DNA of 52,718 bases from NCBI GenBank assembly GCA_031256445.1, contig JAIRQN010000038.1, positions 1 through 52,718 on the forward strand. The letters run 5' to 3'. The position numbers and the translations under genes are program-made. Shown here one piece after another: positions 764 to 30,151 of the stretch; within the stretch, counting starts at the first letter, position 1; every line of letters starts with the position of its first letter. The notes under the pieces were generated by a model. That model was not told the origin of the DNA. It ran no database searches and saw nothing but the letters and a program-made list of their open reading frames with translations. The DNA is from Treponema sp. (GTDB lineage Bacteria; Spirochaetota; Spirochaetia; Treponematales; Breznakiellaceae).

Positions 764-841
764 ACGATAACTCCTACCCATAATATAGCACTTTTTAATG
801 GTTATTAATAGCGATTTTATATAAAAACACCCATTATTACC

Positions 842-871: not shown

Positions 872-877
872 TAACCA

Positions 878-1009: not shown

Positions 1010-1027
1010 TTTTTATTGGAGGGATTT

Positions 1028-1474: not shown

Positions 1475-1485
1475 AAATTTTTACG

Positions 1486-1579
1486 GGCACAAAAAAATGT
1501 GCCGGAGCGAAACGCCACAAAGGTGCGAAGTACCGCCCGGCGTTTTGCGGAAGCCAAGCCGCCATTTAAGGCGGCGATG
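1486..1579. repeat. Second palindrome block, related to 688-763
   Basis: Holds GGCACA/TGTGCC (1486-1491, 1498-1503), an imperfect long-range pair GCGAAACGCC/GGCGTTTTGC (1507-1516, 1539-1548; 9 of 10 pair) and GCCGCC/GGCGGC (1558-1563, 1570-1575). GCGGCGATG at 1571-1579 repeats the motif at 698-706. The first hairpin sits 12 bases after the MotA-like stop and could act as a terminator, although no T-run follows. GTTATGC at 1592-1598 resembles an integron core site, but I find no matching inverted copy. Confidence 0.55.
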
Positions 1580-1622
1580 CTGTTACCGTTTGTTATGCGA
1601 TGTTGGGGCGTACATTAAATCT

Positions 1623-2024: not shown

Positions 2025-2977
2025 AAAATATATGCGTGTTCGGGATGGGCGGAATCGGGGGATATTTGACAGCGCGTTTTGCCGCCGCCAGAAACGCCGA
2101 ACCGGACAGTATTTTTATTACCGGCATAGCAAGAGGTGAAAGTCTTAAAGCCATTAAGGAAAAAGGCCTATGCTTCCGCAATACCGATGGACAGGAAAAT
2201 TTCTTTCACCCTGATTTGATAACGGATGCTTCAGGCTCTCTGAGCGGAAACGCTCTGGGCGAACAGGATATTATTTTTCTGTGCGTAAAAGGCTATGACC
2301 TTGCCGTTGCCTGCGCCGCAATCAGCCCGGTTGTCAGGCCAAAGACCGTCATTGTGCCGCTGCTCAACGGGATAGACATATGCGGGCGGATACGTACGGT
2401 TATTTCTTCGGGCATTGTGCTTCCTGCCTGTATTTACATCTCCGCCCTGCCTCTTGGGCCGGGCCATATTGCCCATGCCGGCGGCAAGGGAAACATCATC
2501 GCCGGAAACGAAAGCGGGCAAGAGTATGATCCCGCCCCGCTTGTTTCACTTATGGCAAAGGCCGGTATTCCCTTTGACTGGCAGGCCGATCCCTTCCCTG
2601 CCCTGTGGACGAAATATCTTTTCATCGCTTCCTACGGCCTCGTTACGGCAATGAGCGGAAAATCCTTCGGGCAAATTCTGGAAACGCCGGAATTGTCCGC
2701 CGCGGTACAGAATATAATCAAAGAAATTTACGCCATTGCCGAGGCAAAAGGCGCATCCGGCGCAAAGCTGCCCGATTCTGTTATTACCAGCTCTTTTGAG
2801 AACGCCCGCAATTTTCCCTATGAGGCGACAACGTCCTTTGCCCGTGACGTGCAAATTCCCGGAAAGCCAAACGAATCGGAGCTGTTCGGCGGCACGATTT
2901 TACGCCTCGCAGGAGAACTGGGTATTCCCACACCGGCAGTAAAAGCAGCCCATGATTCTATCATGAAAAAATGTTAA
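2021..2977 (+). CDS. Ketopantoate reductase-family oxidoreductase (PanE/ApbA-like)
   Basis: 318 residues, usual for the family. The N-terminal Rossmann motif is GMGGIGG (8-14), where NADPH binds; the C-terminal helical domain contains the family's WTKYLFIAS helix and PNESELFGG segment. PanE reduces 2-dehydropantoate to pantoate in coenzyme A synthesis, in the cytoplasm. The catalytic lysine appears to be present (WTK), but the asparagine four residues further on in classic PanE (KxxxN) is isoleucine here, so this may be a paralogue acting on another 2-oxo acid. GGAGG precedes the ATG by 6 bases inside the coupled XRE gene. The pairing with a dedicated regulator also hints at a catabolic role rather than housekeeping CoA synthesis. 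Confidence 0.82.
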   Translation: MKNICVFGMGGIGGYLTARFAAARNAEPDSIFITGIARGESLKAIKEKGLCFRNTDGQENFFHPDLITDASGSLSGNALGEQDIIFLCVKGYDLAVACAAISPVVRPKTVIVPLLNGIDICGRIRTVISSGIVLPACIYISALPLGPGHIAHAGGKGNIIAGNESGQEYDPAPLVSLMAKAGIPFDWQADPFPALWTKYLFIASYGLVTAMSGKSFGQILETPELSAAVQNIIKEIYAIAEAKGASGAKLPDSVITSSFENARNFPYEATTSFARDVQIPGKPNESELFGGTILRLAGELGIPTPAVKAAHDSIMKKC

Positions 2978-3036
2978 TTACGCGGCGACTTATATTCCAT
3001 CCCGTTTTGTATGACAGCAAACTTTGGAGAAATTTT

Positions 3037-4104
3037 ATGAGAAACATTTTAGGTTTTTTAATGATTGGTTTTTTAATGTCATGCGTCAGCCCGCATACTG
3101 GCAGATCTCCTTCCGGTCAAAATCAAAAGGACATCAGGCCAAGATATTTATACCCCAATGATTTTATGGCGGACCCTGCCGCGCATGTATTCAACGGTAA
3201 GCTGTATATTTATCCCTCTCACGACAGGAGATCCTCCGGTTACTCAGGCAATACGATGGACGGCGGCGCGTACGATATGGCGGATTATCATGTGTTTTCG
3301 TTAGACGACATATTCTTCGGTGACGTAACGGATCATGGCGTTGTTCTGGCTCTTTCTGATATTCCCTGGGCAAAGGGCCAGTTATGGGATAATGACGTAG
3401 CTTACAGGAACGGCGCGTATTATATGTATTTTCCGGCAAAGGATCAAAACGATATTTTTCGAATTGGCGTTGCCGTCTCTGACCGCCCTGAAGGCCCTTT
3501 CATTCCGCAGCCGCAGCCGATTCCCGGAAGTTACAGCATAGACCCGTGCGTATTCGAAGACAACGGCAGTTTTTATATGTACTTCGGAGGCATCTGGGGC
3601 GGCCAGCTTCAGTTTTATGACGGTAACATTTTTGCCGGTTCATCAGGAAGAAACAGCTTGCCGTCCGGCGAAGCTATTTCACCCCGTGTTGTTAAGTTAA
3701 GCGATGATATGCTTCAATTCGCGGAAAGTCCCAGAGAACTGAAAATTCTTGACAATAACGGCAATCCTCTTTCAGGCGCTAACGGAAGACGTTTTTTTGA
3801 AGCGTCATGGATGCACAAATATAATGACAAATATTATTTTTCATATTCAACAGGCGACACTCACAATATATGTTACGCTACAGGCGAAAACCCTTACGGC
3901 CCGTTTACATATCAGGGCGTTATTCTGACTCCTGTTACAGGATGGACTACTCATCACTCAATTGTGGAATTCAGGGGGGAATGGTATCTGTTTTATCATG
4001 ATGCCGGCCCTTCCGGCGGAACAGATCATTTAAGGAGCATGAAAGTAACCGGATTGACGCACCTTCCCGACGGAACGATAGAAAGAATAAACGGGATGAG
4101 GTAG
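3037..4104 (+). CDS. GH43-family glycoside hydrolase, lipoprotein
   Basis: 355 residues from ATG 3037, which has GGAG 7 bases upstream; an in-frame ATG at 2971 would place 22 odd residues before the signal peptide. The N-terminus is a type II signal with lipobox LMSC (C16), so the enzyme is anchored facing the periplasm or outside. Five-bladed propeller features of family 43 are visible: the catalytic-base region FMADPAAHVF near residue 30, DPCVFEDNGSFYMYF in the middle, EASWMHK with the probable acid glutamate, and HHSIVEFRGEWYLFYHD near the end. The family cleaves arabinose- and xylose-containing side chains or xylo-oligosaccharides; the exact substrate cannot be read. It follows the PanE-like gene on the same strand. 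Confidence 0.88.
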   Translation: MRNILGFLMIGFLMSCVSPHTGRSPSGQNQKDIRPRYLYPNDFMADPAAHVFNGKLYIYPSHDRRSSGYSGNTMDGGAYDMADYHVFSLDDIFFGDVTDHGVVLALSDIPWAKGQLWDNDVAYRNGAYYMYFPAKDQNDIFRIGVAVSDRPEGPFIPQPQPIPGSYSIDPCVFEDNGSFYMYFGGIWGGQLQFYDGNIFAGSSGRNSLPSGEAISPRVVKLSDDMLQFAESPRELKILDNNGNPLSGANGRRFFEASWMHKYNDKYYFSYSTGDTHNICYATGENPYGPFTYQGVILTPVTGWTTHHSIVEFRGEWYLFYHDAGPSGGTDHLRSMKVTGLTHLPDGTIERINGMR

Positions 4105-13936: not shown

Positions 13937-14812
13937 TTATTTAATAAGCATGTGTTTTTTATTAATATCAACTTTTGATAAAAAAGATACTACTATTATT
14001 GCGATTAAAGTACAAATATAGGGAAGAGCGAGAATAAAATCCGCCGGAAGATTCCAAAAGCCCTGCGCATGGTTGGAGAAAGCTTCCGCCAGAGCAAAAA
14101 GGAAGGCGGCAAGGATAAGCCCAAATGGTTTTCTGGCGCCGAGGAAAATAATAACAAGGCCGATCCAGCCTTTTCCGGCTGACATTCCCGGCACAAAAAC
14201 GCCGAGGTTAAGGCTCATGAACGAACCGCCAATTCCGCAGAGAAATCCGCAAATGACGAATGCCAGCGTCTGGTAATAAAGAGGTTTTATTCCAAGTGAA
14301 ATCAGAGCGCTTTCGTTTTTTTCACAGGCGCGCAGTCTGTAGCCGAACGGGGTCTTGAATAATATCAGCCAGGAGATAAAGATAAAAAACAATGCCAGGA
14401 AAAAGAAATGAAAACCGCGCTGCTGATGAAAGGCCGCCGGATACAGGACGCTTGCGGCTGTGACCACTCCCCTTGTATTGAATAATTTTTCCAACAGCAC
14501 AATACTCAGTCCGCCCGCCAACAGGTTTACCGCAAGCCCGGTAATGAATAAATTTGCGCGTAATTTAAAGGCGGCAAAAGCGTGAATAAGCGAAAGTAAA
14601 ACCGCTGATACCGCCGCCGCCGGCACAGCCAGGAAAACGCTGCCTGTAAAATGAAATACAACAAGCGAAGTAAACGCTCCGGCGAGAAGAAGCCCTTCCA
14701 GAGCTATGTTGAGCGTTCCGGCAAGCGCGGGGAAAAGTCCTCCGGCGGCGGCGAAGAGCAGGGGAATCATTATGGTGACGGAGCTCTTAAGGACAGGGAT
14801 TATACTTTCCAT
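13937..14812 (-). CDS. ABC transporter permease, BMP/nucleoside-sugar type
   Basis: 291 residues with about 8-9 membrane segments. The conserved LFAAAGGLFPALAGTLNIALEGLLL near the N-terminus and LAFVICGFLCGIGGSFMSLNLG in the centre are typical of the second, shorter permease (NupQ/PnrE-like) of BMP-dependent importers in the branched-chain/ribose permease superfamily. It would form the inner-membrane channel together with the next permease upstream. Its start overlaps the end of that gene by 13 bases. It is the last gene of the transporter set; only a weak hairpin follows before the galactokinase-like promoter. Confidence 0.92.
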   Translation of the reverse strand: MESIIPVLKSSVTIMIPLLFAAAGGLFPALAGTLNIALEGLLLAGAFTSLVVFHFTGSVFLAVPAAAVSAVLLSLIHAFAAFKLRANLFITGLAVNLLAGGLSIVLLEKLFNTRGVVTAASVLYPAAFHQQRGFHFFFLALFFIFISWLILFKTPFGYRLRACEKNESALISLGIKPLYYQTLAFVICGFLCGIGGSFMSLNLGVFVPGMSAGKGWIGLVIIFLGARKPFGLILAAFLFALAEAFSNHAQGFWNLPADFILALPYICTLIAIIVVSFLSKVDINKKHMLIK

Positions 14813-15906
14813 TGCCTGTTTTTCCTTTTTCGTGAGAAAATATCCCTGATTACAAGGCTTGTCGCAAGGAAGAAAATGACAGCCTGCACAATCGAAGCGG
14901 TTTCAAAATTGAGGCCGGTATTCTGCATTGCGATTCTCGCTCCGGCGCCGATCCATGCGAAGAAGAGAGCCGCCGGTATTATCGCCGGAGGGTAAAAACA
15001 GGCAATCAAGGCGACAGCAAGCCCGTTCCATCCCATTCCCGAGGAGAATTCTTTTACTGCCGCGTGATATGTGCCAAGTACGGCGACGCTTCCCGCAAGT
15101 CCGTAAAAGCCGCCGCTTACCGCCATCGCCAGAACTGTATTCAGTTTTGTATTGATCCCTCCGTAACGCGCAAATATTTCGTTATATCCCGCCATCCGAA
15201 ATTCATAACCCTTCCCTGTTCCGTAAAGAAAAAAGTGAACAATAACGACAGCGGCCGCGCCGATGAAAATTCCCGTGTTAAGGTTTGACGGCTTTAAAAT
15301 TAAAGTCAGCCTCATGCTTTGCGCAATCTTTCCCGTAGACTGAAGAGAGGCTGCAGGATCGGCCAGCGGGCCTGTGATAAAATAATTAACAACGGGAATT
15401 ACGGCGCATGAAAAAAGGAATGTCGTTATAAGCTCGTTGGCGTCCCATTTCGCCCTGCAAAAACCGCTGAATGCCGCCATCGCGCCTGACGCAAGTATTC
15501 CTGCAACGGCCGCAATGAGTCCTCCCATTATACTGAACCGGGATAACGCGATGGCGGCGATTGTTGTTATAAACGCGCCAAGGTAAATCTGCCCCTCTCC
15601 GCCAAGGTTAAGGTTTCCGGCTTTCATTGCCACAGTAATACCCAGCGCTCCCAAAATTAACGGAATTGACGCGTTAAGCATATTGCCGAAACTGTAAATA
15701 TTTCTGAACGGCCCAATGAAGAAAAAATAAAGCGTCCTTGCCGGAGTATCGCTTAATATAAAAACTATCAGTACTATGACAAGAACTGCCGCAGCAGGGA
15801 TAATAATCATTCCCGGTGAAAAAACAGAAGCGCGGGAAAAATCCGCTATCCGGTTTTTTAATCCGGCGTCAGGAGGACCGCTTTGAATTTTATCTCTCTC
15901 TTTCAT
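14800..15906 (-). CDS. ABC transporter permease, BMP/nucleoside-sugar type
   Basis: 368 residues from ATG 15906. A cytoplasmic N-terminal tail is followed by about ten membrane segments. The motif AVKAGNLNLGGEGQIYLGAF (read here as AMKAGNLNLGGEGQIYLG) is the hallmark of NupP/PnrD-type permeases. The ORF is open to TTG 15933, but nothing supports that codon, while AGAAGCGGGA precedes ATG 15906. It pairs with the downstream permease to form the channel and follows the ATPase gene by about 40 bases. Confidence 0.92.
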   Translation of the reverse strand: MKERDKIQSGPPDAGLKNRIADFSRASVFSPGMIIIPAAAVLVIVLIVFILSDTPARTLYFFFIGPFRNIYSFGNMLNASIPLILGALGITVAMKAGNLNLGGEGQIYLGAFITTIAAIALSRFSIMGGLIAAVAGILASGAMAAFSGFCRAKWDANELITTFLFSCAVIPVVNYFITGPLADPAASLQSTGKIAQSMRLTLILKPSNLNTGIFIGAAAVVIVHFFLYGTGKGYEFRMAGYNEIFARYGGINTKLNTVLAMAVSGGFYGLAGSVAVLGTYHAAVKEFSSGMGWNGLAVALIACFYPPAIIPAALFFAWIGAGARIAMQNTGLNFETASIVQAVIFFLATSLVIRDIFSRKRKNRQWKV

Positions 15907-15946
15907 AATTCCCGCTTCTTTTTTGTTAACCAAATTATATATACGG

Positions 15947-17461
15947 TTAACGCTTTTCTCCGCTGTTCATGCATCTGCAAATTTCGTCTTTTATACCGTC
16001 TTTATTGGCAAAAACACCGGAAATTCCGCCTTTGTACATTACAATTATCCGATCCGATAGAGTGAGAATTTCATCAAGATTTGTCGAGATAAGGATAACA
16101 GCGGCTCCTCTTTCCCTGAGAGCGGCGATTTCACCCATTATAAAACGGCTTGACTTAATATCCAAACCCCATGACGGCTCGGAAAAAACAATGTAATCGC
16201 ATAACCTGTTTATTTCACGCGCCAAAATTAATTTCTGCAGATTACCTCCGGAAAGAGCGGATGCCCTTTCGTTCAGGTTCGGCGCGTCTATATTGAAATT
16301 TTTTACCCATGAACCGCACAGGTTTCTTGTTTCATTTTTCTTTTTATGGAATTCATGCCTTTTATTGATTATCATGTTCTCTTCTATCGTGGCGTCCGCC
16401 GCGCTGCCTACGCGAAGACGATCCGCCGGAACGTAGGCAAGCCCCTGATTGCGCAGGGCGCGGATGCTCAAAGCGGAAATATCTTTTCCCTTATGCAGCG
16501 CCTTCCCTGACGCCGGATGCAGAAAACCGCCGAGAACCGCTTCTATTACTCCAAGTCCGTTCCCGCCAACGCCCGTAAATCCAAGAATTTCCCGCTCATT
16601 TACCGAAAAGGAAACATTATCAAGAAGCGGCCTCTTCTGCCCGTGCCGCGTAACTGTCACATTTTCAAAGGCAAGCACGGGATCTCCTGTTCTGGCGTCT
16701 TTGCGCGGGGGAATGCCCGCCGGATGCGCGGAATTTTCATTTTCATCGTTTATCATTAACCGCGCTATTTCATTTTCATCAATTTCTGACAGGTTACGGA
16801 CTGCCGCAAGTTCTCCCCGGCGAATGACAGCGACGCGATCGCTGATTTGCTTTATTTCACCTAACTTGTGGGTGATAAAAATTATTGATTTTCCCCCTTT
16901 AACCAGCGATTTTAACGTATTAAACAGCGAGCTGGTTTCCTGTTCTGTCAGTATAGAGGTAGGTTCGTCAAGGATAATAATTTGCGCGTTCCGGTAAAGG
17001 AAACGGCATATTTCAAGCTGCTGCATTTCTCCCAGAGTTAAATCTTTTACTTTACAGGAAGCGTTAACTGAAAAACCATGATCGTCAATAATTTTTTGCG
17101 CTATTTTATCCGCCTTTTTCGCGTCAAAAAAGAATTTCCATTTAAGAGGTTCCATCCCCATTACAACATTTTCCGCCGCCGTATAATCTGTGAACAGCAT
17201 GAAATGCTGGTGAACCATGCCGATTCCAAGCCTTTTGGCCGTTAAAGGAGAATCGATTATCTCTTTCTTTCCGTTTATGAAGATCTCTCCGGCATCGGGA
17301 GTTTCAAGTCCGGCAAGTATTTTCATCAACGTGGTTTTGCCGGCGCCGTTTTCTCCCGCGATACATAGAATCTCGCCTTTTTTTAAATCGAAAGTAATAT
17401 TGTTATTGGCTTTCCTTGCGCTTCCCGGGTACGTTTTGCTGATGTTCTGCACCGCTATCAT
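15947..17461 (-). CDS. ABC transporter ATP-binding protein with two ATPase domains
   Basis: 504 residues made of two fused nucleotide-binding domains. Domain 1: Walker A GENGAGKTTLMKILAG (about 38-53), signature LTLGEMQQLEI, Walker B IIILDEPTSIL. Domain 2: a degenerate Walker A GVGGNGLGVIEAVLGG, signature ALSGGNLQKLILAREI, and Walker B-like YIVFSEPSWGLD. The degenerate second loop is usual for RbsA/NupO-type proteins and does not imply loss of function. It energises the two permeases. It begins 14 bases after the BMP lipoprotein stop, with no Shine-Dalgarno; TATAAT ends 8 bases before its ATG, so an internal near-leaderless start is possible. Confidence 0.95.
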   Translation of the reverse strand: MIAVQNISKTYPGSARKANNNITFDLKKGEILCIAGENGAGKTTLMKILAGLETPDAGEIFINGKKEIIDSPLTAKRLGIGMVHQHFMLFTDYTAAENVVMGMEPLKWKFFFDAKKADKIAQKIIDDHGFSVNASCKVKDLTLGEMQQLEICRFLYRNAQIIILDEPTSILTEQETSSLFNTLKSLVKGGKSIIFITHKLGEIKQISDRVAVIRRGELAAVRNLSEIDENEIARLMINDENENSAHPAGIPPRKDARTGDPVLAFENVTVTRHGQKRPLLDNVSFSVNEREILGFTGVGGNGLGVIEAVLGGFLHPASGKALHKGKDISALSIRALRNQGLAYVPADRLRVGSAADATIEENMIINKRHEFHKKKNETRNLCGSWVKNFNIDAPNLNERASALSGGNLQKLILAREINRLCDYIVFSEPSWGLDIKSSRFIMGEIAALRERGAAVILISTNLDEILTLSDRIIVMYKGGISGVFANKDGIKDEICRCMNSGEKR

Positions 17462-17475
17462 AAAATAAAATTATA

Positions 17476-18507
17476 TTATAGCGAAGGGACAACATAATTT
17501 ATCCTGCCCGCGCGCAGATCATCAAGAAAGACTTCGAATTTAACGCGAATGTCCTGCGGCAGACTGTTGATGTAGAGGGGATCGTCTTTTATAAATCCAA
17601 GATACCCCTCTTTTATTCCGATTGTCTGTGAAATTCCGTACTCTATATTTCCTGCCAGCGCTTCATTTAAGATTTCCATAACAAGTTTTTTCTGCTCCAT
17701 TATGCCGCAGCCGATCACAAGGCCTTCTGCCAAACTGTATTCATTTATATTGTAACTTACGATATACGCGCCTCTGTCAACCGCCGTCTTTATCATTCCG
17801 AGGGAAGCGCCGCCCGCTATGGAGGTAAACACATCCACCCCCCAATCAATCATCGCGGAGGCAAGTTCCGCCGCTTTGTTCGCGTCCGCCCATGAGCCGA
17901 TTATCCTGCGATCAAGCTCAATTTCCGGATCGGCAAGCCTTGCTCCGTCAAGAAAACCCGGCGCCATCTGCTTTGTCAAAAGCGGATATTCCTGCGCGGC
18001 GATAAAGCCAATCTTCTTCTGCGCGTTTGCGTGCCGCATTGAACTTGTCGTGACAAGAGCGGCAAGATACCCAAGGTAAAGAGACTGTTCGTACTGGTTG
18101 TAAAGGTATGTTCTTATCTGCGGATTTCCTTCGTAATGCGCGTCTGTGATAATAAATTTCTGATCGGGAAACATTCTTCCCACATTGGCGGCAAGCTGCG
18201 GTAAAGAAGGGTTTGATCCAAGCACAATATCATATTCCCCGCCTGAAACCATCTCTCCAAGCTGCTGTTCCCACTCAGCCTGATTAAAACCTGCTTCATA
18301 AATTTTAACATTTACATTTGGGTTGTTTTTCGCGAAATCAAGCGCCCCTTGCGCCATTAATTCATATGTCGGGCTTCCCGCAGTTACCCCGGTAATAAAA
18401 ACCAAAACTGAAAATGTATTGTCAGTTTTTTCAGGCGCGGTATTTTTTTTACAGCCAAAAGAAAATAAAAACGCAAAGAGCAATAATACAACCGGTAACT
18501 TTTTCAT
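17476..18507 (-). CDS. BMP-family (PnrA/TmpC-like) substrate-binding lipoprotein
   Basis: 343 residues. Type II signal peptide with lipobox FSFGC, so C19 is lipidated and the protein is anchored in the periplasm. The rest is the two-lobed BMP fold (FSVLVFITGVTAGSPTYE, YDIVLGSNPSLPQLAANV, KKIGFIAAQEYPLLTK, VDVFTSIAGGASLGMIKTA). Family members capture purine nucleosides (TmpC/PnrA of T. pallidum) or sugars. A sugar ligand is plausible here because an FGGY kinase lies upstream and a galactokinase-like gene downstream. Its own strong promoter overlaps the stop codon of the FGGY gene, and the -10 ends 6 bases before ATG, so the message should be leaderless and can be made independently of the kinase. 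Confidence 0.92.
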   Translation of the reverse strand: MKKLPVVLLLFAFLFSFGCKKNTAPEKTDNTFSVLVFITGVTAGSPTYELMAQGALDFAKNNPNVNVKIYEAGFNQAEWEQQLGEMVSGGEYDIVLGSNPSLPQLAANVGRMFPDQKFIITDAHYEGNPQIRTYLYNQYEQSLYLGYLAALVTTSSMRHANAQKKIGFIAAQEYPLLTKQMAPGFLDGARLADPEIELDRRIIGSWADANKAAELASAMIDWGVDVFTSIAGGASLGMIKTAVDRGAYIVSYNINEYSLAEGLVIGCGIMEQKKLVMEILNEALAGNIEYGISQTIGIKEGYLGFIKDDPLYINSLPQDIRVKFEVFLDDLRAGRINYVVPSL

Positions 18508-18513
18508 AATAAT

Positions 18514-18542
18514 ATTTTAAAAAATCATGTTTTTTTTGTCAA
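18514..18542 (-). promoter_or_regulatory. Promoter of the BMP/ABC operon, leaderless geometry
   Basis: Perfect TTGACA (18542-18537), 17-base spacer, TAAAAT (18519-18514), then ATTATT and ATG 18507. The TGA inside TTGACA is the stop codon of the upstream FGGY kinase gene. Confidence 0.8.
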
Positions 18543-20056
18543 TTAAGGCATCTTTCCTGTTTATACCTGACAAAAAAATCATTATACAGCCGCGCATTTT
18601 CGGGATTGGGCTCAAAACGCCTCTGAACCGCGCACATTGCCCCAGACGCTTCCCTGTATGACGAAAATTTTCCAAGAAAGCAGGCGCCGATTACCGCAAG
18701 GCCCAAAAGTTCGGCTTCTTTCAGCGCAGGTTCCAGCGCCGGTCTGCCCGTTATGTCAGCCTTCATCTGATTTAGCGCGGCGTTTCCCGCAAGGCCTCCC
18801 GTTACGTGCAACTGTTCCGCCGCAGCGCCGGATTCTTCCATTACGGTGATAATATCCCTGATGGCGAAGCATATCCCCTCAAGCACTGAATTCGCCAATT
18901 CACTCCTGCCGGAAGACAGGGTTAAACCCCGCCACAGTCCGCGCGAAACGGAATCCCCTGCCCTGCTTCCGGCAAGATACGGCAAAAAGACAAGAGAGCC
19001 GCTGCCGGGCCCGCTTTCCTTCGCGAGCGAGAAAAATTCATGGAAACCGGAAAGCCCCAAAAGATCGCGGCACCACTGTATAGCCATGCCTGTCGTATTA
19101 ATTACCCCGGATAAATTCCAGTAAGGTTTTACAGGGTGACCGTAAGACATCAGTTTTTCATGGCTGATATGATCTTTAACGCAGATATTTATTCCGTCCG
19201 AAGAGCCGGTTCTGTCGCAGATTTGCCCGGGTTCTGTTACGCCGCTCCCCAAAATTGACGCGAAAAAGTCCGGCCCTCCTGAAATAACCGGAATATTTTC
19301 CGCAAAACCAAAACGCCGCGCGGCGGAAGGAAGAATGTTTCCAAAGGGATCGCCGGGCCGGATAAAAGGAGGAAACTTGTCCGCGTCCAGCTTCAGTTTT
19401 TCAAGGACGCTATCGTTCCAGAACCAGCGGTCAAAACCATCGGAGGGGAAAACAGTTTTCGCTTCGCCTGTCAGCGCATAGGCAAGGTATTCCGGGCAGC
19501 CCAAAAAATATTTTGTTTTATGGTATAGTCCTGCTTCATCATTTTTTATACTTAATATTTTGGGAAGGAAAAAACATGAATCGACAAACCCGCCCATTAA
19601 AGCTGAAACTTCGCTTGAGTATTCCAGCAGCTTTTCCGTATTCAGACCCGGCTGAGGTTCAAAAGCGGAACTTTCGCGCTGCGGGCCTTCGTCCATCCGC
19701 GATGATTTCATTTGAGGTTCAAGCCAGAGCCATGCGTTTCCTGCCAGGGGAGAAAACCAGTCAGAAGCGTCCGGCTCTTTAAACACAGGAACAAGACTTG
19801 GGCCGTTCCCGCTTAAAACAATCGCGCGCACACCGGCGAAACCGCCGTTATGCACATTTGACTGCCGCTTTAAATCAGACAGCAGTTTATGACAGCACTC
19901 TTCAAACGCGCGCAGCCACATGGAAGGCACCGCTTCATACTTTAAACCGCATTTGTTTACAGAAAGAGCCGCCGAGGCGAATGACAAACGGTTTCCGTCA
20001 AGATCCCACAAAGCCGATTTAAAGATCGATGTTCCTATATCAATTGTAAGCAGCAT
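18539..20056 (-). CDS. FGGY-family carbohydrate kinase (xylulokinase-like)
   Basis: 505 residues, the usual length. The N-terminal phosphate loop is TIDIGTSIFKSALWDLDG. The C-terminal domain has the family block GGLAGNAALNQMKADITGRP plus EAELLGLAVIGA. A central glycine-rich segment (GQICDRTGSSDGINI) lines the nucleotide site. These cytoplasmic kinases phosphorylate xylulose, ribulose, rhamnulose or similar; the exact sugar cannot be read. It lies directly upstream of the BMP importer on the same strand, consistent with import and then phosphorylation. It has no Shine-Dalgarno; TTGACA-N17-TGTGAT ends 6 bases before ATG 20056. It is divergent from the LPP20-like gene. Confidence 0.88.
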   Translation of the reverse strand: MLLTIDIGTSIFKSALWDLDGNRLSFASAALSVNKCGLKYEAVPSMWLRAFEECCHKLLSDLKRQSNVHNGGFAGVRAIVLSGNGPSLVPVFKEPDASDWFSPLAGNAWLWLEPQMKSSRMDEGPQRESSAFEPQPGLNTEKLLEYSSEVSALMGGFVDSCFFLPKILSIKNDEAGLYHKTKYFLGCPEYLAYALTGEAKTVFPSDGFDRWFWNDSVLEKLKLDADKFPPFIRPGDPFGNILPSAARRFGFAENIPVISGGPDFFASILGSGVTEPGQICDRTGSSDGINICVKDHISHEKLMSYGHPVKPYWNLSGVINTTGMAIQWCRDLLGLSGFHEFFSLAKESGPGSGSLVFLPYLAGSRAGDSVSRGLWRGLTLSSGRSELANSVLEGICFAIRDIITVMEESGAAAEQLHVTGGLAGNAALNQMKADITGRPALEPALKEAELLGLAVIGACFLGKFSSYREASGAMCAVQRRFEPNPENARLYNDFFVRYKQERCLN

Positions 20057-22824: not shown

Positions 22825-24884
22825 ATGAACCGCAGATACAGGCGGTGCGGGCAATTGAAGGGCCTGTCCTTATAATCGCCGGCGCAGGCTCCGGAAAAAC
22901 AAGGGTTATTACCTACCGCATCGCGCATATGCTGGAGCGGGGAATTCCCCAATCCTCGATTCTCTGCCTGACATTTACAAATAAAGCGGCCGGTGAAATG
23001 GAAACAAGGGTTAAAGAACTTACCGGCAAAAAAATGCAGAGTTTGACTGTCAGCACATTTCACGCTTTTGGACTTAAAATTTTAAAAGAAGAATGCGAAC
23101 TTTTAGGTTACAGAAAAAATTTTTCTGTTTATGATGAAACGGACAAGATGGCCCTTATTAAAGAATCGCTTCGTGAATGCCGTATGAATTTCCACAAGGT
23201 TGACATTTACGCTCTTGGACAATTTTTTTCAAGGATTAAAACAGGAATGGTTCAATGGAACGAGAACGCCTCCATGGAACCGGTTTTTAATGAATACCAG
23301 CAGGGATTGAAAATTTTTAACGCGGTGGATTTTGACGATCTTCTTGCAATTCCGCTTGATTTGCTTGAGAAACATGGGGATATCGCATTAAAGTACCGCA
23401 AAAAGTACCGTTATATCATGGTAGACGAGTTTCAGGACACAAGCCTTATCCAGTACAGACTGATGAGGCTTCTTGCGGATTCGCAAAACGCCAATATCTG
23501 CGTTGTCGGGGATGACGATCAGTCCATTTATTCCTGGCGGGGAGCCAATTACGAAAATCTTTTGTTGTTTGAAAAGGATTTTCCGCAAAGAAAAGAAATT
23601 AAACTTGAGCAGAATTACCGCTCCACTTCCGCCATACTGAACGCGGCCAACGGAGTTATTTCACATAACACAGGCAGAAAGGACAAGAAACTCTGGACAG
23701 GCAGGCAGGCAGGCAAACCCATAACCCTGTTTTACCCTGAAAATGAAAGCGCCGAATCTGATTTTATCGCCGCCCGGATCAGGCATTTAATGATCATGGA
23801 AGATTACAAATACCACGATTTCGGCGTGCTTACAAGAACAAATTCGCTCATGAAAAACATCGAAGAGGCATTCCTGGCGGAAAACATCCCATACCGCGTA
23901 TCGGGAGGAACAAGTTTTTTTCAGCGAAAGGAAATCAAGGACATTATTTCCTATATGCGGATAATCGCCAATACAAGCGATGACATCAGTCTGTTACGTG
24001 TCATCAACACGCCGAGGAGGGGCATTGGAAAGACGACAATTTCGGCGTTAAGCGACATGGCAAGAAAAAACCGCTCAAGCATCTGGGACTCCATTTCGCG
24101 CCTTAACCTTGAACGCTCGGCAGGACAGCAGGGTCTTTTCGCGGATCATAAGGCATTAACGGAGCTTGACGGGTTTTCCGTAATGACGGAAAATTTTAAA
24201 TCGCTGTTTCTTGAACGAAAGGGAGAAAACGGAAAACCCTGGAAATTATCCGGCTGCGTCCGCGCGCTGGTTGATAATATCGACTACTGGGGCTACCTTG
24301 TTATCGAGCACGGCAAAGATGAAAAAAAAGCAAGGTGGAAATACGGCAATATTGAATATTTCATTAAAATGATAGAAAACTGGGAATCTGATCCTGACAA
24401 TTTAGACGCCGGGCTTTACGCGTGGCTTAACAGGATCAGCCTTATCACGCGCGATGACGGGGAAGACGATAACAGGGGCAAAGTAAACCTGATGACAATT
24501 CACGCGGCAAAGGGGCTTGAGTTTCCTGTTGTATTTATCGCCGGCGCCGAAAAGGGTCTTATTCCCCATGAACGCAGCGTTGTCAGTGACAGCGGGGAAG
24601 ATGAAAAAGAAGACAACGGAAGCGTTGAAGAAGAGCGCCGTCTTTTTTATGTCGCCATTACAAGGGCGAGGGAACTATTGTACATAACATCCTGCCGTAA
24701 ACGCCGCCGTCTGCAGAATGCCACCGACTGCTGCCCTTCCCCGTTTCTTGAAGAAATACCGGCACAGCTGATCATGCTCTGCGAAAAGGAAAAAGACACG
24801 GAAGTTACAGGCGAGCAGGAAGACATTTTCATGGAAAAAATGAAGGCTATTTTTGACAAGCCGCAGTCAGAGCGCGGGAAATAA
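22794..24884 (+). CDS. uvrD: UvrD/Rep/PcrA-family ATP-dependent DNA helicase
   Basis: 696 residues of superfamily 1A helicase. Motif Q/I: NEPQIQAVRAIEGPVLIIAG then GAGSGKTRVITYRIA; motif II: YIMVDEFQDTSLIQY; motif III: VVGDDDQSIYSWRGA; motif IV: LEQNYRSTSAIL; motif V/VI: VNLMTIHAAKGLEFPVVFI and VEEERRLFYVAITRARELL. It unwinds DNA 3' to 5' in repair and replication restart. It begins inside rdgB; its end overlaps the convergent membrane-protein gene by 38 bases. Whether it is UvrD, PcrA or Rep cannot be settled from the motifs. Confidence 0.93.
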   Translation: MSKFKFNPELNEPQIQAVRAIEGPVLIIAGAGSGKTRVITYRIAHMLERGIPQSSILCLTFTNKAAGEMETRVKELTGKKMQSLTVSTFHAFGLKILKEECELLGYRKNFSVYDETDKMALIKESLRECRMNFHKVDIYALGQFFSRIKTGMVQWNENASMEPVFNEYQQGLKIFNAVDFDDLLAIPLDLLEKHGDIALKYRKKYRYIMVDEFQDTSLIQYRLMRLLADSQNANICVVGDDDQSIYSWRGANYENLLLFEKDFPQRKEIKLEQNYRSTSAILNAANGVISHNTGRKDKKLWTGRQAGKPITLFYPENESAESDFIAARIRHLMIMEDYKYHDFGVLTRTNSLMKNIEEAFLAENIPYRVSGGTSFFQRKEIKDIISYMRIIANTSDDISLLRVINTPRRGIGKTTISALSDMARKNRSSIWDSISRLNLERSAGQQGLFADHKALTELDGFSVMTENFKSLFLERKGENGKPWKLSGCVRALVDNIDYWGYLVIEHGKDEKKARWKYGNIEYFIKMIENWESDPDNLDAGLYAWLNRISLITRDDGEDDNRGKVNLMTIHAAKGLEFPVVFIAGAEKGLIPHERSVVSDSGEDEKEDNGSVEEERRLFYVAITRARELLYITSCRKRRRLQNATDCCPSPFLEEIPAQLIMLCEKEKDTEVTGEQEDIFMEKMKAIFDKPQSERGK

Positions 24885-25479
24885 AATAACCGCCGAAAAT
24901 CACAATGAAGCGGTCAATAAGATTGACCGGGAGACGGGAGAGAATGTCCATCGCCAGAACAGGAATCGACCCCTGAAAAAACCATTCCTTAAAAGCGTCT
25001 TCGGCGCTGAATGCCGGTTTGATGTTTGGCAGTACCGTGTAGAAAACATAATCTATCAGTCCGCCGAGAATGCTTATGGCGATGCAGACGATGATGTACA
25101 GCATCATGAGCCGCGCCAGAATGCTTATAAAAACCGCGCGTTTTCTGTCTTCATTTAACGTCCGTATTTTTACAGCGGCGGGTTTTAAAATAAATATGAT
25201 AATTACTTCGGCAATGCTGCATAAAATGAACGGGGTGACAATGTCGTCCTTTACCGCAAAACCAATTACCCATGTAAGAACAGCGGTAACAAGTCCCGGA
25301 ATTAAACCTGCGTAAAAGGTAACTGCGGCGGTAAATACGGTATCTACAAATAACGGCAGTTTCAATACAGGCACGAGCAACGGGTGAATGATGGAATTTA
25401 AAGATGCCGCCATGACGCATAAGGCGGCTGTTCTGACCGGCGTAATCTTTAGAAAACGGACGGGATTTGGACTTAACAC
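24847..25479 (-). CDS. Predicted multi-pass membrane protein, ECF S-component-like
   Basis: 210 residues with about 5-6 hydrophobic segments (LPLFVDTVFTAAVTFYAGLI, GLVTAVLTWVIGFAV, ISILARLMMLYIIVCIAIS and others). The pattern and size recall substrate-binding S components of energy-coupling-factor importers, but no A or T component is near and no ligand can be named. It starts at GTG 25479 without a Shine-Dalgarno; TATGAT lies 11 bases upstream. It is divergent from the histidine kinase across only 45 bases, so it may be the kinase's missing sensor or its target; that is inference. Its end overlaps uvrD by 38 bases. Confidence 0.65.
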   Translation of the reverse strand: MLSPNPVRFLKITPVRTAALCVMAASLNSIIHPLLVPVLKLPLFVDTVFTAAVTFYAGLIPGLVTAVLTWVIGFAVKDDIVTPFILCSIAEVIIIFILKPAAVKIRTLNEDRKRAVFISILARLMMLYIIVCIAISILGGLIDYVFYTVLPNIKPAFSAEDAFKEWFFQGSIPVLAMDILSRLPVNLIDRFIVIFGGYFISRALTAACQK

Positions 25480-25512
25480 TGGAAAAGTCTATCATAAAAA
25501 AATGAATGCGCC

Positions 25513-25518
25513 TATAAT
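25513..25518 (+). promoter_or_regulatory. -10 box of the histidine kinase operon, leaderless geometry
   Basis: Perfect TATAAT followed by exactly 6 bases (AAAAAT) and ATG 25525. No good -35 is seen; control by an activator is possible. Confidence 0.55.
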
Positions 25519-25524
25519 AAAAAT

Positions 25525-26328
25525 ATGGAAGCGCAGTATTTCGCCGCAGGAGCGTATTTTTCCCTTTTACTGGTGCTGGTCTTTTTTATTACGCTTTCAT
25601 TGATTTTGGTTTATTCCTTAAATAAGGAACTGAAGAAATCCCTGAGCCGGGAAGAAGAAGGCTCTGTTTATTCGCGGGCTATCCTTCTTGCCCAGGAAGA
25701 TGAAAGAATGCGAATAAGCCGGAAACTGCACGATACTGTGGCGCAGGATCTGTGGCGGCTTTCGTTTCAGACAGAAAGCATAGATAAAGCCTCGGACGCC
25801 GCGGAACGGAAGAAACTGTGCGCGGAGGTTGTCAGGGGGCAAAAGGAGCTTATGCGGCTGGTCAGAGGCATTTGCGATAACCTTATCCCTCCGGATTTTC
25901 AGCGCAGGCATTTTGACGATTCGCTGAGGAACCTGTGCAATAATTTTGAACAGCGCACCGGCATTAAGTGCCGGCTCGTTATTCAGGATAAACTTTTTTT
26001 GAATCCAGGAGAAAGCGATATACAGCTTCAGTGTTTCCGCATTGTGCAGGAGTGCCTGACGAATATTGAAAAACACTCAGGAGCCGCGCAGGCATCGGTA
26101 CTTATCAGAAAAAACGCGGAAGGCGAACCTGTTATATGCGTTTCGGATGAAGGCAAAGGCTTCAGCCCTCCCGGCAAAGATTCCTGCCGTAAGCTGCGCA
26201 CAGACGGACACTACGGGTTATGGAACATATATGAACGCGCCGCCTCATTATCAGGCGTTGTCACGATTGAAAGCGAAGCCGGGAAAGGCGCATCGGTAAC
26301 ATTGCGTTTAACAGGAGGCAGTTCATGA
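25525..26328 (+). CDS. Sensor histidine kinase, HisKA_3 type
   Basis: 267 residues. One N-terminal membrane segment (about 8-31), then directly the dimerisation/phosphoacceptor helix RISRKLHDTVAQDL with H69, and an ATPase domain with SDEGKGFSP and a final GHYGLWNIYERAASL. This is the NarL-type kinase family. There is no periplasmic loop or PAS domain, so sensing must come from the membrane segment or a partner; the divergent membrane protein is a candidate. Its stop overlaps the response-regulator start (ATGA), the expected pair. The -10 hexamer ends 6 bases before ATG. Confidence 0.93.
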   Translation: MEAQYFAAGAYFSLLLVLVFFITLSLILVYSLNKELKKSLSREEEGSVYSRAILLAQEDERMRISRKLHDTVAQDLWRLSFQTESIDKASDAAERKKLCAEVVRGQKELMRLVRGICDNLIPPDFQRRHFDDSLRNLCNNFEQRTGIKCRLVIQDKLFLNPGESDIQLQCFRIVQECLTNIEKHSGAAQASVLIRKNAEGEPVICVSDEGKGFSPPGKDSCRKLRTDGHYGLWNIYERAASLSGVVTIESEAGKGASVTLRLTGGSS

Positions 26329-26930
26329 TCAATATTGCGCTCATTGACGATCACCCTCTGGCGGCAAGCGGCATCGGCGCGTGGCTTTGCGCCACAGGCC
26401 GCTTCGCAATCGCCGGAACGGCGAGAACTCTCAATGAAGCCGGTAATCTCATGGAAAAGCTGAACCCTCTGCCGGAAATCGTTATTCTCGACGTATCGCT
26501 TGGGACAGAAGACGGCTTTGATTTTATTCCCGCGCTGGAAGATATTTGCGCCCAAAAAGGCGTGGAAAGGCCCTGCATTCTGGTCTGTTCAATGTACGAA
26601 GACCCTTTTTTGATACAGCGCGCGCTTGATTCAGGCGCAAACGCATACGTGGCAAAGTGCGCGGAATCTGAAGAAATAATCACGGCTATTGATAAAATTC
26701 TTGCCGGAGACCTTTACGTCAACCCAAAATACCAGATACAGACGCCCAAACGCGCCTGGCAGATGCTGACCAGCCGGGAAAACGAAATTGTATCTTTGAT
26801 AAAACAATCCCTCAGCAGCCGGCAAATCGCCAAACGCCTTGGAATCAGTATCCGGACCGTAGAAAACCACCTGGCGCATATTTACGAAAAAACTGAAACA
26901 TGTTCACGGGAAGAACTGCTGGAACTGTAG
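26325..26930 (+). CDS. NarL/LuxR-family response regulator
   Basis: 201 residues. The receiver domain has acidic residues D8 and D9 (IDDHP) and phosphoacceptor D56 (IVILDVSLG). A LuxR-type helix-turn-helix (about 142-195) reads LTSRENEIVSLIKQ and SSRQIAKRLGISIRTVENHLA. The partner is the kinase immediately upstream, with a 4-base start/stop overlap and GGAGG inside the kinase gene. Likely targets are the divergent membrane protein or the downstream repeat lipoprotein, but no operator could be identified. Confidence 0.94.
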   Translation: MINIALIDDHPLAASGIGAWLCATGRFAIAGTARTLNEAGNLMEKLNPLPEIVILDVSLGTEDGFDFIPALEDICAQKGVERPCILVCSMYEDPFLIQRALDSGANAYVAKCAESEEIITAIDKILAGDLYVNPKYQIQTPKRAWQMLTSRENEIVSLIKQSLSSRQIAKRLGISIRTVENHLAHIYEKTETCSREELLEL

Positions 26931-26986: not shown

Positions 26987-27049
26987 TATCAAAGAACAGG
27001 TTCTCAAACATGAATTTGTTTTTTTTTGGGAAAATTCAAGGAGAAAATT

Positions 27050-30000
27050 ATGAAGAAAAAAAGTAAAGGGGCATTGTCCCTGGTGGCAGGCATCATGCTT
27101 GCCGCAGTTCTGGCGGCCGGTTTTACCGCCTGTGATGACGGCAACGCAAATGTAACATTTACAGTTATATTTGACGCCAATAACGGCAGCGGCACGCCTC
27201 CCGCTCAAATGCAGGCAAACGCCAATTCCGCCATAACCCTTCCCGATCAGAGCGATCTTGCAAGAAGCGATTTTATCTTTGACGGCTGGAACACGAGTTC
27301 CGCAGGTACGGGAGCCAATTACCCTGCCGGTTCTTCCTATATATTAACCGGCAATACTACCTTATACGCCAAATGGAATACAGCCGCCTATACTGTTACA
27401 TTTGACGCCAATGACGGAGACGGCAAACCGCCCAATCCAGCGCCGGCAAGCGCGGGTTCCGGTATAATCCTTCCCGGTCAGGACAGCCTTATAAAAAGCG
27501 GCCATACATTTGGCGGCTGGAACACAGAGGCTGACGGTACAGGAACCAATTACTCCGCCGGTTCTTTCTATTCCGTGAACGGCAATATTACCCTGTACGC
27601 CAGATGGGATATCACTTCTTCCTATTCCGTTATAGGCAGTATTACAGTCGGCGGTTCAATGTACGAAGGTACGATATCCGCGAACCAGACTCACTTTATT
27701 AGGGTAAGTTTTGACGCAGGCAGTACCTACAGAATATACTGGAACGACAATGATAATACTGATTCATTGAACGCTGATGTGCGTGTTGGTTTGATTAAGG
27801 AATCAAATTCTTCAACGGTTCAGCCTGTTGTTGATAATACCGGTAATAATGCTTTTATTTACACTGTTTCGCCGGGTGAAGGCGGTAATTATCTGATGGC
27901 AGTGCAGGGTTTTTATTCCGGCGGCAGGTATGACGCGGGAGTCATCTGCATTGCCGGCACTGTTACAGTTAACGGCGATATATATCAGGGCAGCTTAATT
28001 GCGGATCAAACGCAGTATGTATTGGTAAGTTTAGATGCAGGCAGCGCTTATAAAATTTCATGGAATGATCGCGATAATCAGTCTGGCTCATCGTTTACTG
28101 ATATACATGCAGGCCTTATAAGAGAGTCAACTTCCGCAGTAGTTCATTCTTTCGTTGACAACCGCAGCACCAATGCATTTATATACGCTGTTCCGTCAGG
28201 GGCCGATGATGATGATAATTACCTGATAGCGGTACAGGGGCTTAGCTCTTCGTTCAGCGGCAGATATGAAATAAGCTGTGAGTCAACCAGCGACAGCATA
28301 ACCGCCTGTTCAGTTGTCTTTAACGCCAACAGCGGCAGCGGTACGCCTCCCGTTTCGATGTCGGCAAGCGAAGGTTCTGATATAACCCTTCCCGGTCAGG
28401 GAAACCTTGCAAAAAGCGGTAATTTTTTTATCGGCTGGAATACAGAAGCTGACGGTACAGGAACCAATTACCCTGCCGGTTCAACCTATACCGTAACCGG
28501 CGAAATTATTCTGTACGCAGAATGGGATACAGCCGCCCCCTGTGCTGTTACCTTTAACCTTAACGGCGGCACAGGTTCGGCTCCCGGCCAGATAGCAAGA
28601 GGCGCAGGTTTGAGCGCAACCCTTCCCGGCCAGGGAAACCTTGCAAAAAGCGGTTATATTTTTAACGGCTGGAACACAGAAGCTGACGGTACAGGAACCA
28701 ATTACTCAGCCGGTTATTCCTATACTGTAACCGGCAATATTACCCTGTACGCCAGGTGGGAAACTGCCTATACAGTTACGTTTGACGCCAACGGCGGCAC
28801 AGGCGCGCCTTCTGAACGGGCAGTTATGCTGGATTCAATCATATCCCTTCCCGGCGAGGGAAACCTTACAAGAAGCGGTTTTGTTTTTAACGGTTGGAAC
28901 ACAGAAGCTAACGGTTCAGGAACCAATTACCCTGCCGGTTATTCCTATACTGTGACAGAGAATGTTACACTGTACGCCAGGTGGGGTAATATTGCCACGC
29001 CGACAGGGCTTAAAGCGGAAGCTATTTCATCATCAGGTATATCATTGTCATGGAACGCTGTACAAGGCGCTTCCGGTTATTATGTGTATATAAATACCAG
29101 CAGTTCCGCTGCCGGCCGTACCAAATCAGATTCGCTTAGTTCTACTAACAACATCACTTTAAGCAACCTTTCAGCAAACACTACATATTATTTCTGGGTA
29201 ACAGCTTACAACAACAGCGCAGAAAGCAGCTTGTCATCGTATGTTTACACGAAAACTTATCCGGTAACTTCAACAATGGAAGTCACTATTGCCATGTGGG
29301 ATAGTTATGGTGACGGCTGGAATAATAATGCAGCTTTGAGAATAAGTGTAGATAGGACAAATCTGGCAACAAACGCCAGGATTACCAGTGGCGGCACAGG
29401 AAGTTATACATTTAATGCTAGGGTGGGTGAAGTTGTTGAACTATACTGGGTTAGTGGCGGTCAATATGATTATGAATGCGCCTTTGCTGTATATTACACC
29501 GATAATGCGCCAAACCCGTCATTTAACCCTTCATCAGGAACGAGTGATACCAGTAAATTATTGGCTTCTAAACTGTACAGTCCTTCAGGAGTTGTTGGTA
29601 ACGGAACTCTGATGGGTTCGTTTACAGTAGGTACTATTATGAAAGAAGACTTTGAAGGAACTACTCATTCATTTACCATCGTAAATGGTACACAGACCAA
29701 TAAATGGTGGGTAGGAACCGCCACTGCTGAGAGCGGCGCGAAGTCTGCCTATATTTCCAATAATAGCGGCGCATCAAATGCATATACTATTACTACTGCA
29801 AGTACGGTTCATATGTATCGAGACGTGACATTTACGGCAGCCCCTGTTTCAACATATACGCTTAGTTTCGATTGGAAAGCCCAGGGAGAAACTACATCAT
29901 CAACTCTTTATGATTATTTAACGGTATACCTGGTGGACACATCAACTTCAATTACAGCCGGCAGTCTGCTTAATGCTACAGCATTGGGAACATTTAATTT

Positions 30001-30151
30001 GGGCGGCAGTTCAGATTGGAATCAGGCAACCATTGATATTCCTGCATCAAATAATGGAACCACAAAACGTCTGGTGTTTACCTGGCGCAACGATAATTCG
30101 CAAGGCTCTCAGCCGCCAGTTGCGATAGATAATATATTATTAACGAGGTAG
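27050..30151 (+). CDS. Large surface lipoprotein with Listeria-Bacteroides repeats and FN3 domain
   Basis: 1033 residues from ATG 27050 (AAGGAG 8 bases upstream). Type II signal with lipobox FTAC (C28). Five InlB B-repeat/Flg_new units of about 70 residues occur, two before and three after a central part; each has FDAN-x-G near its start, GWNTEADGTGTNYPAG-like cores and LYA-x-W at the end. The central part is a duplicated domain of about 100 residues (SITVGGSMYEGTI... and TVTVNGDIYQGSL...). Next come a fibronectin III domain (about 648-740), a WDSYGDGWNN module and a jelly-roll-like C-terminus (WWVGTATAESGAKSAYIS, FDWKAQGET). It is probably exposed and binds host material, polysaccharide or other cells. 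It is a single gene closed by the hairpin at 30166. Confidence 0.88.
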   Translation: MKKKSKGALSLVAGIMLAAVLAAGFTACDDGNANVTFTVIFDANNGSGTPPAQMQANANSAITLPDQSDLARSDFIFDGWNTSSAGTGANYPAGSSYILTGNTTLYAKWNTAAYTVTFDANDGDGKPPNPAPASAGSGIILPGQDSLIKSGHTFGGWNTEADGTGTNYSAGSFYSVNGNITLYARWDITSSYSVIGSITVGGSMYEGTISANQTHFIRVSFDAGSTYRIYWNDNDNTDSLNADVRVGLIKESNSSTVQPVVDNTGNNAFIYTVSPGEGGNYLMAVQGFYSGGRYDAGVICIAGTVTVNGDIYQGSLIADQTQYVLVSLDAGSAYKISWNDRDNQSGSSFTDIHAGLIRESTSAVVHSFVDNRSTNAFIYAVPSGADDDDNYLIAVQGLSSSFSGRYEISCESTSDSITACSVVFNANSGSGTPPVSMSASEGSDITLPGQGNLAKSGNFFIGWNTEADGTGTNYPAGSTYTVTGEIILYAEWDTAAPCAVTFNLNGGTGSAPGQIARGAGLSATLPGQGNLAKSGYIFNGWNTEADGTGTNYSAGYSYTVTGNITLYARWETAYTVTFDANGGTGAPSERAVMLDSIISLPGEGNLTRSGFVFNGWNTEANGSGTNYPAGYSYTVTENVTLYARWGNIATPTGLKAEAISSSGISLSWNAVQGASGYYVYINTSSSAAGRTKSDSLSSTNNITLSNLSANTTYYFWVTAYNNSAESSLSSYVYTKTYPVTSTMEVTIAMWDSYGDGWNNNAALRISVDRTNLATNARITSGGTGSYTFNARVGEVVELYWVSGGQYDYECAFAVYYTDNAPNPSFNPSSGTSDTSKLLASKLYSPSGVVGNGTLMGSFTVGTIMKEDFEGTTHSFTIVNGTQTNKWWVGTATAESGAKSAYISNNSGASNAYTITTASTVHMYRDVTFTAAPVSTYTLSFDWKAQGETTSSTLYDYLTVYLVDTSTSITAGSLLNATALGTFNLGGSSDWNQATIDIPASNNGTTKRLVFTWRNDNSQGSQPPVAIDNILLTR
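28310..28985 (+). repeat. Three tandem DNA-level repeats in the surface lipoprotein
   Basis: Three consecutive units of about 220 bases, each encoding one Flg_new module, share near-identical stretches, for instance TGACGGTACAGGAACCAATT (with small changes in the third). Two more diverged units lie at about 27150-27610. Such repeats can recombine and change module number. Confidence 0.75.

Follow-up and report, generated by a model that had tools for sequence, protein, structure and literature searches.

The sensor kinases UhpB, NarX and NarQ act with NarL-type regulators and have membrane sensor domains of their own; in the LiaF-LiaS, BceAB-BceS and UhpC-UhpB systems the kinase relies on a separate membrane partner. 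The stretch of DNA analysed here (the window; 52,718 nucleotides of contig JAIRQN010000038.1, assembly GCA_031256445.1, Treponema sp., order Treponematales, family Breznakiellaceae) encodes a histidine kinase and a response regulator with the same catalytic core and regulator architecture as UhpB, NarX and NarQ with their regulators, but the window kinase, unlike these three, has no sensor domain. A multi-pass membrane protein (MP), encoded divergently beside the kinase and belonging to another family than the partners named above, is proposed to serve the kinase as those partners do. In this study, the three genes were compared with homologous loci from relatives and from the phylum, focusing on the identity of MP, the conservation of its pairing with the kinase and the origin of the window cassette.

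Partipilo and Slotboom reported in 2024, on the basis of structure prediction, that the S-components of energy-coupling factor (ECF) transporters and the 5TMR sensor kinases share a fold (PMC11109136). The receptors covered by that paper carry the domain fused to kinase, PAS, GGDEF, EAL, methyl-accepting chemotaxis protein or phosphatase outputs, and an AxxxA motif in helix 1, the contact with EcfT, is said there to be kept in S-components and missing from receptors; its Discussion calls the evolutionary origin elusive and the trees not conclusive, the link resting on folds. In the 5TMR-LYT kinases (LytS, YpdA and BtsS; PF07694), of which BtsS binds pyruvate (PMC10653868), the S-component fold serves as membrane receptor of a kinase (PMC11109136), as proposed for MP; there the domain is part of the kinase chain and bears an additional helix H0, whereas MP is a separate subunit without H0 and stands with a HisKA_3/NarL system. 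Caulobacter HmrC, described by Zappa et al. in 2024, is S-like, stands alone and belongs to the pathway of the kinase HmrA; the authors placed it upstream of HmrA and modelled a complex (PMC11481889). As judged from the published description, HmrC resembles MP in standing alone and clustering with its kinase, with genetics that place it in the kinase pathway and a predicted complex with the kinase dimer; it differs in having five helices, a hybrid kinase with HAMP and periplasmic domains and a link to cyclic di-GMP, and it is a single case. By analogy, the window system may work like both the 5TMR kinases and HmrC-HmrA. A preliminary description of the window had called a ligand-binding membrane partner acting as sensor a new arrangement; that claim is not supported, since both the S-component fold in sensor kinases (PMC11109136) and a stand-alone S-like kinase partner (PMC11481889) were already published. 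What is new here is a large and widespread family of probable split S-component receptor kinases, a bridge between transporter and receptor at the sequence level, and a natural module swap. No description of this family was found in the open-access literature among the matches listed, no paper there combined the terms for ECF transporter, S-component, histidine kinase and sensory domain, and the words 'operon' and 'standalone' are absent from PMC11109136.

On its own, the window MP gave EMP70 as its best Pfam match (E 1.3). Against NF045596, the CD3073 family of putative ECF S-components, it scored 22 bits (E 1e-4), short of the curated cut-off of 180 bits; among the 35 MP family members, however, 31 matched NF045596 at E<=10 (best 4e-24) and four matched Pfam ECF_trnsprt (best 4.8e-8). 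The MP profile gave 0 matches to PDB sequences up to E 10, and comparison of structures was therefore needed. An AlphaFold model from 40 sequences had a mean pLDDT of 90.8 and a pTM of 0.86. Foldseek placed ThiT/RibU at ranks 1-9 (probability 0.99-1.00, E 0.03-0.27, none at E<=0.001). In the VIA comparison, for which the tool itself cautions that Z near 13-14 is possible for unrelated helical models, ranks 1-16 were S-component entries or S-sized chains of ECF transporters with Z from 14.3 to 9.3, namely RibU at 14.3 (rmsd 3.2 over 159 residues), the FolT complex at 12.5, BioY at 12.2, ThiT at 11.8 and the PanT complex at 10.7, among others, including 4huq, titled merely 'a transporter'. The next row was particulate methane monooxygenase (pMMO; Z 8.8); the rows under the S-components (pMMO and ammonia monooxygenase subunits, Lnt) were taken as a common helical arrangement, and the list leaves room for families absent from it. 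The AlphaFold model thus has the S-component fold by VIA and, because the sequence family points the same way in spite of the caution on Z, sequence family and predicted fold together show MP to be a homologue of the ECF S-components, the resemblance that the preliminary description had noted. In sequence family and predicted fold MP agrees with the NF045596 S-components; it differs from them in its score, in being paired with a kinase and a regulator instead of the ATPase and T-component genes, and in having no fixed AxxxA. A match of MP to the P13 porin (NCBIfam, E 4e-4) was shared by only two of the 35 members and was taken as chance in a hydrophobic sequence.

Helix 1 of the model begins at residue 14. 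Most S-component chains enter the alignment near their own start, at model residues 11-14, and there is no N-terminal extra helix H0. PF07694 was not matched by the window MP and was not among the 25 of 40 Pfam families displayed for the other 34 members; by profile search and model, MP is not a PF07694 member. The predicted topology places both termini and the positively charged loop 99-109 inside, and many conserved polar residues (N28, D46, T47, S136, R182, N186, D189 and R190) would then lie in the outer half, the ligand-binding side of S-components.

The partner genes form a HisKA_3/NarL two-component pair. In Pfam, HisKA_3 (residues 60-123) and HATPase_c (168-262) were above cut-off in the kinase, with no other domain, and Response_reg and GerE were above cut-off in the regulator. 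Just 13 residues precede the single hydrophobic segment of the kinase (residues 14-32); the kinase with one membrane helix and no input domain stands as first described. The family-invariant positions H69, D70, N180, D208 and G210 are all kept. The regulator start overlaps the kinase end by 4 bp.

MP homologues were found in 25 of 59 relatives; in a phylum sample of 296 genomes, 58 had them. Genome G260, a single contig of 4.06 Mb, holds four. A total of 120 stretches were analysed, 119 of them around homologues, and their neighbours were scored with models of MP, the kinase core and the regulator. For the census, stand-alone homologues of 180-310 aa were considered, those with >=1.5 kb on both sides were regarded as having full flanks, and a kinase was counted within 1 kb. 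Inside the order, 67 of the 75 full-flank homologues had a HisKA_3-type kinase within this distance (15/17 in the same genus, 5/5 in other genera of the family and 47/53 in other families of the order), against a chance expectation estimated at ~2% from the kinase density (17 matches with E<=1e-3 over 2.79 Mb); unrelated neighbours are ruled out by these counts, and the conserved neighbourhood proposed as a check in the preliminary description was borne out. Both exceptions in the genus have the kinase at 1.7-2.1 kb in the same divergent layout; among the six in the order, the kinase lies at 2.7 kb in one, only a regulator-like gene is near in three, and neither in two. Loci of the order with cut flanks had a kinase in 13 of 22 cases. 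Outside the order such a kinase stood by one of six full-flank homologues, and Pfam placed kinases of other classes beside three (a dCache kinase in L148, SBP_bac_3 kinases in L150 and L151). MP is thus encoded and co-inherited with a HisKA_3 kinase, and mostly also with a NarL-type regulator.

The layout of the pair varies. Across genus, family and order, cut flanks included, 37 pairs were divergent, 29 had MP first on the same strand, nine had the kinase first and five were convergent, and at least 10 changes of arrangement were counted on a quick kinase-core tree (fusion counted as one arrangement). The arrangement changes repeatedly while the pair persists, and therefore the linkage outlives rearrangement. 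Pairwise distances of MP and kinase correlated at 0.864 over 80 pairs (L147 included), compared with a mean of 0.46 and a maximum of 0.66 after within-genome kinase swaps, none of 1000 reaching the observed value; since linked genes share their history anyway, the correlation supports co-inheritance of the two proteins rather than contact between them. Visual inspection of gene maps of homologous loci showed no conserved gene following the regulator.

Two variants of the cassette were seen beside these. In L154 (4403-6214), kinase and regulator form one open reading frame (ORF) of 603 aa beside a divergent MP. L150 (681-3678) and L151 (3300-6372) come from another family of the phylum; there the kinases next to S-like genes combine SBP_bac_3, HisKA, receiver and AraC-type helix-turn-helix domains, apparently a second, independent pairing.

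The constant partner in these loci is MP and not a sensor region of the kinase itself. Among 87 kinase ORFs over 200 aa in the analysed loci, 38 have, like that of the window, one helix preceded by under 60 residues; in many others an extra extracytoplasmic region of ~130 residues, which models as helices (pLDDT 83, pTM just 0.43), stands before the helix. The state of the sensor region changes at least five times on the kinase-core tree while MP stays, and by this comparison such a region has been gained or lost several times among the relatives of the kinase, the missing input domain of the window kinase being one instance. Kinases with the extra region in L069, L071-L074, L076, L078, L079 and L096 have a lipobox-like N-terminal signal (e.g. 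FLSC) and may carry a lipid anchor there. One class of shortened kinases (226-276 aa; L081, L082, L084, L085, L086, L090, L091 and L095) lacks ~28-33 residues of the dimerisation and histidine phosphotransfer hairpin after the H-box in the alignment, which leaves an unusually small dimerisation domain.

Fused forms were found as well. Ten homologous stretches in long ORFs were analysed, out of 19 matches in ORFs over 400 aa. Membrane domain and kinase, which are separate genes in the window, form one chain in L137 (509 aa) and L138 (547 aa), where an N-terminal MP domain precedes a HisKA_3/HATPase_c core and the regulator gene follows; in seven further fusions (L135, L136 and L140-L144) the MP domain is followed by an HD_5 end of the HD-GYP class. 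The family is thus joined in relatives to kinases and HD-GYP enzymes, as the same kind of membrane domain, and therefore an MP-type domain feeds at least two output types in cis. In L139 (2544-5048), a protein of 439 aa has a C-terminal S-like domain and no Pfam domain, with a GGDEF gene 30 bp on.

Because S-component homology, order-wide pairing and fused forms coincide, a ligand-binding membrane partner acting as sensor, as first suggested, is the best reading of the locus: MP is probably the ligand-binding subunit of a split receptor, exerting its effect on the helix of the kinase. The pocket of the S-component fold that faces outward would take up a small ligand from outside the cell, and MP would dock on the kinase dimer through the single membrane helix of the kinase instead of on EcfT. 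Ligand binding would alter the geometry of the helix or linker and so set kinase or phosphatase activity at H69, which would govern whether the regulator is phosphorylated at D56 and binds DNA. An input module (MP, kinase helix and linker) and an output module (kinase core and regulator) would be exchangeable by recombination, and the window copy would be the result of one such exchange.

The window cassette itself has two affinities. Its MP is 74% identical to that of L061 and 63% to that of L062 (37% L078, 33% L079); its regulator is 74% identical to that of L079 and 58% to that of L078 (42% L062), the regulator of L061 lying off its contig. The kinase is like L061/L062 up to about residue 66 and like L078/L079 from residue 72, with the junction in the H-box. 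Quick-method trees of 25 (MP), 25 (kinase core) and 18 (regulator) rows, in which the groups were named after the identities had been seen, placed the window MP with L061/L062 (SH-aLRT 99; alternative rejected, approximately unbiased test p 5e-14), its kinase core with L078/L079 (support 91, not starred; alternative p 2e-41) and its regulator with L078/L079 (support 98.9; alternative p 3e-72). Because L061 and L062 show no such conflict between MP and core, the recombinant is probably the window cassette, with MP and kinase helix from one lineage and kinase core and regulator from another. No break in composition was seen at the junction, either in GC content (0.458 on its left, 0.466 on its right) or in tetranucleotide distances. 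A genuine exchange would have left MP and the membrane helix of the kinase together and substituted everything else, as expected of a split receptor. At the junction, two places before H69, residue 67 of the kinase (25723-25725) is K in place of an almost invariant E, the other 28 alignment rows having E or D. The same genome holds a decayed cassette (L100/L268; G000:C50:1-800), in which an L061-type kinase C-terminus (73% over 95 residues) and the start of a regulator are joined directly to a C-terminal fragment of MP, the front parts of the MP and kinase genes being missing, and a further intact MP-kinase pair (L069; G000:C53:1-10000), whose contig GC of 36.5%, against 46% in the window, suggests a mis-binned contig or an island.

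Several observations, besides the caution on Z given above, tell against MP as a receptor subunit. Two of the 53 full-flank order homologues (L145 and L264) have neither kinase nor regulator nearby and three (L146, L245 and L246) have only a regulator-like gene; the distance correlation is not independent of gene linkage; the MP domains of the fusions are remote relatives of the window MP, with E 4e-15 and 5e-17 in the model of the family; and the chimera stands in a draft assembly, where a misjoin is possible and compatible with the even composition. By gene context, two remote homologues from outside the order resemble subunits of transporters. In L174 (genome G205, 333-3900) an S-component (E 5e-10 in the MP model, itself above the ECF_trnsprt cut-off) is followed by a protein of 170 aa, two ATP-binding cassette (ABC) ATPases and CbiQ, with no kinase in the stretch; in L147 (genome G122; E 3e-24 in the MP model) the homologue lies between an ABC ATPase and CbiQ, with a converging PAS/HisKA_2 kinase. 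Moreover, CbiQ/EcfT was found in all 59 genomes searched, with three matches in the genome of the window, so that MP could use such an ECF module.

The last two points, together with the membership of MP in the S-component superfamily and the fact that divergent regulator/transporter pairs are common, favour the main rival, by which MP is an ordinary S-component sharing a solitary EcfAA'T encoded elsewhere, while the two-component system only regulates MP expression and the kinase does its own sensing. The kinase and HD-GYP fusions speak against this, as do the 38 of 87 kinases that have no extracytoplasmic region to sense with. An ECF-operon homologue without a kinase nearby, named in the preliminary description as the case that would count against a sensor, does occur outside the order (L174); inside the order no CbiQ lies near any homologue. 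Apart from L147 and L174, no CbiQ/EcfT gene was present in the other 118 of the 120 stretches, as scored with a CbiQ model built from matched-strand ORFs and the L147 gene, and for that reason the receptor reading stands inside the order. The AxxxA motif is a weaker point: it is absent from helix 1 of the window MP, and among 117 members it occurs in at most four at any of six registers and in 24 anywhere in helix 1, but as a discriminator between transporter and receptor it was set aside as weak, for of the two members in ECF gene runs L174 has it and L147 does not. On balance, an ordinary S-component is an unlikely account of MP.

Still less probable is that the kinase is constitutive or senses within the membrane and that MP is a ligand-free negative accessory regulator comparable to LiaF. 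In LiaFSR a one-helix or short kinase is accompanied by a membrane inhibitor, and NCBIfam LiaS is a distant match of the window kinase. The many conserved polar residues in the outward loops and helix ends of the S-component fold, as placed by the predicted topology, do not suit a ligand-free protein, and in the HD-GYP fusions the inhibition of a kinase cannot be the role of the domain. A transceptor, transporting via EcfT and also signalling through the kinase as is thought of partners such as UhpC and DctA, would draw on the points for an ordinary S-component, on the fusions and on a small-xxx-small pattern at residues 21/25 in 37 of 117 members, but is very improbable, with no CbiQ gene in the stretches around the homologues of the order and with fused forms that could hardly topple onto EcfT. 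MP as the receptor subunit of a split kinase is therefore the reading retained here, and the features of the locus are listed in Table 1 accordingly.

Table 1. Features of the MP-kinase-regulator cassette (window positions)
Feature	Position	Strand	Basis
MP, S-component-like membrane protein (210 aa, GTG start), proposed ligand-binding receptor subunit	24847..25479	-	ORF, NF045596 family, census, AlphaFold model, structure comparison
Divergent intergenic region, 45 bp, two outward-facing -10-like boxes 17 bp apart, no -35	25480..25524	.	Sequence, 7-sequence comparison
TATGAT box, just upstream of MP	25495-25490	-	
TATAAT box, 6 bp before kinase ATG	25513-25518	+	
Sensor-less HisKA_3 histidine kinase (267 aa)	25525..26328	+	ORF, domain search, hydrophobicity, alignment
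Sole hydrophobic segment of the kinase (residues 14-32), proposed MP contact	25564..25620	+	Contact inferred
Kinase H-box stretch (residues 66-72; phospho-acceptor H69 at 25729-25731), lineage affinity switches here	25720..25740	+	Identities, trees
NarL-type response regulator (201 aa; Response_reg and GerE; acceptor D56 by position)	26325..26930	+	Domain search

The divergent layout and the perfect plus-strand -10 box without a -35 were both confirmed: inspection of the sequence found no TTGACA-like hexamer 17 bp upstream of TATAAT, and the expected -35 place is occupied by TATCAT (25490-25495), which is TATGAT on the minus strand. Among seven compared sequences, the window included, TATAAT stands at the aligned place in four and TATACT in two more, and TATCA (25490-25494) is invariant in all seven. 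The promoter scanner did not list the TATAAT box; its one hit (25468-25495) was at chance level (shuffle mean 0.6) and was dropped.

Two other regions of the window were noted. The gene after the regulator (27026-30151) is a possible target of the regulator; its product, of 1041 aa, has List_Bact (Flg_new) repeats and fn3, and matches MAM weakly. On the minus strand at 14800-20056, a run of putative genes for an ABC permease, an ABC ATPase, a lipoprotein binding protein and an FGGY-like kinase was noted by eye.

The samples were composed as follows. From the search of relatives, 39 of 47 MP matches were analysed (one of the remaining being the window itself), and L099 was added as a kinase without MP; from the phylum search 80 stretches were analysed, mostly the best-scoring, and of the f25 matches L174 and L265 were taken in. 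Alignment A1 held 34 of 38 homologues and the window, one open-ended sequence and three with X being left out; alignment A3 held 39 of 52 named loci and the window, after removal of fragments, open ends, sequences with X and two long N-terminal extensions. The census left out four fragments and 10 long or fused ORFs, and the near-duplicates G280 and G333 were counted separately. In the comparison of helix 1 motifs the window row lacked its first residue, so that position p of that comparison is residue p+1. ORF starts are the longest possible, so that some N-terminal lengths are overlong, and the trees are quick-method trees with many unresolved branches (30 of 79 in the kinase-core tree).

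The MP family joins transporter and receptor uses at the sequence level, with members in ECF gene runs, as separate subunits and as fused domains, and the order of events thereby becomes testable. Quite possibly, although we advance this tentatively, spirochaetes keep the steps from S-component to receptor in one sequence-traceable family (the ECF runs of L147 and L174, the separate subunit and the fused domain), and their split receptors are modular, the S-like protein and the membrane helix of the kinase passing to other kinase-regulator pairs through recombination in the H-box, as in the window. A split receptor would allow ligand binding and signalling to be studied and exchanged apart, and MP offers a candidate sensor for many spirochaetal kinases without a sensor region.

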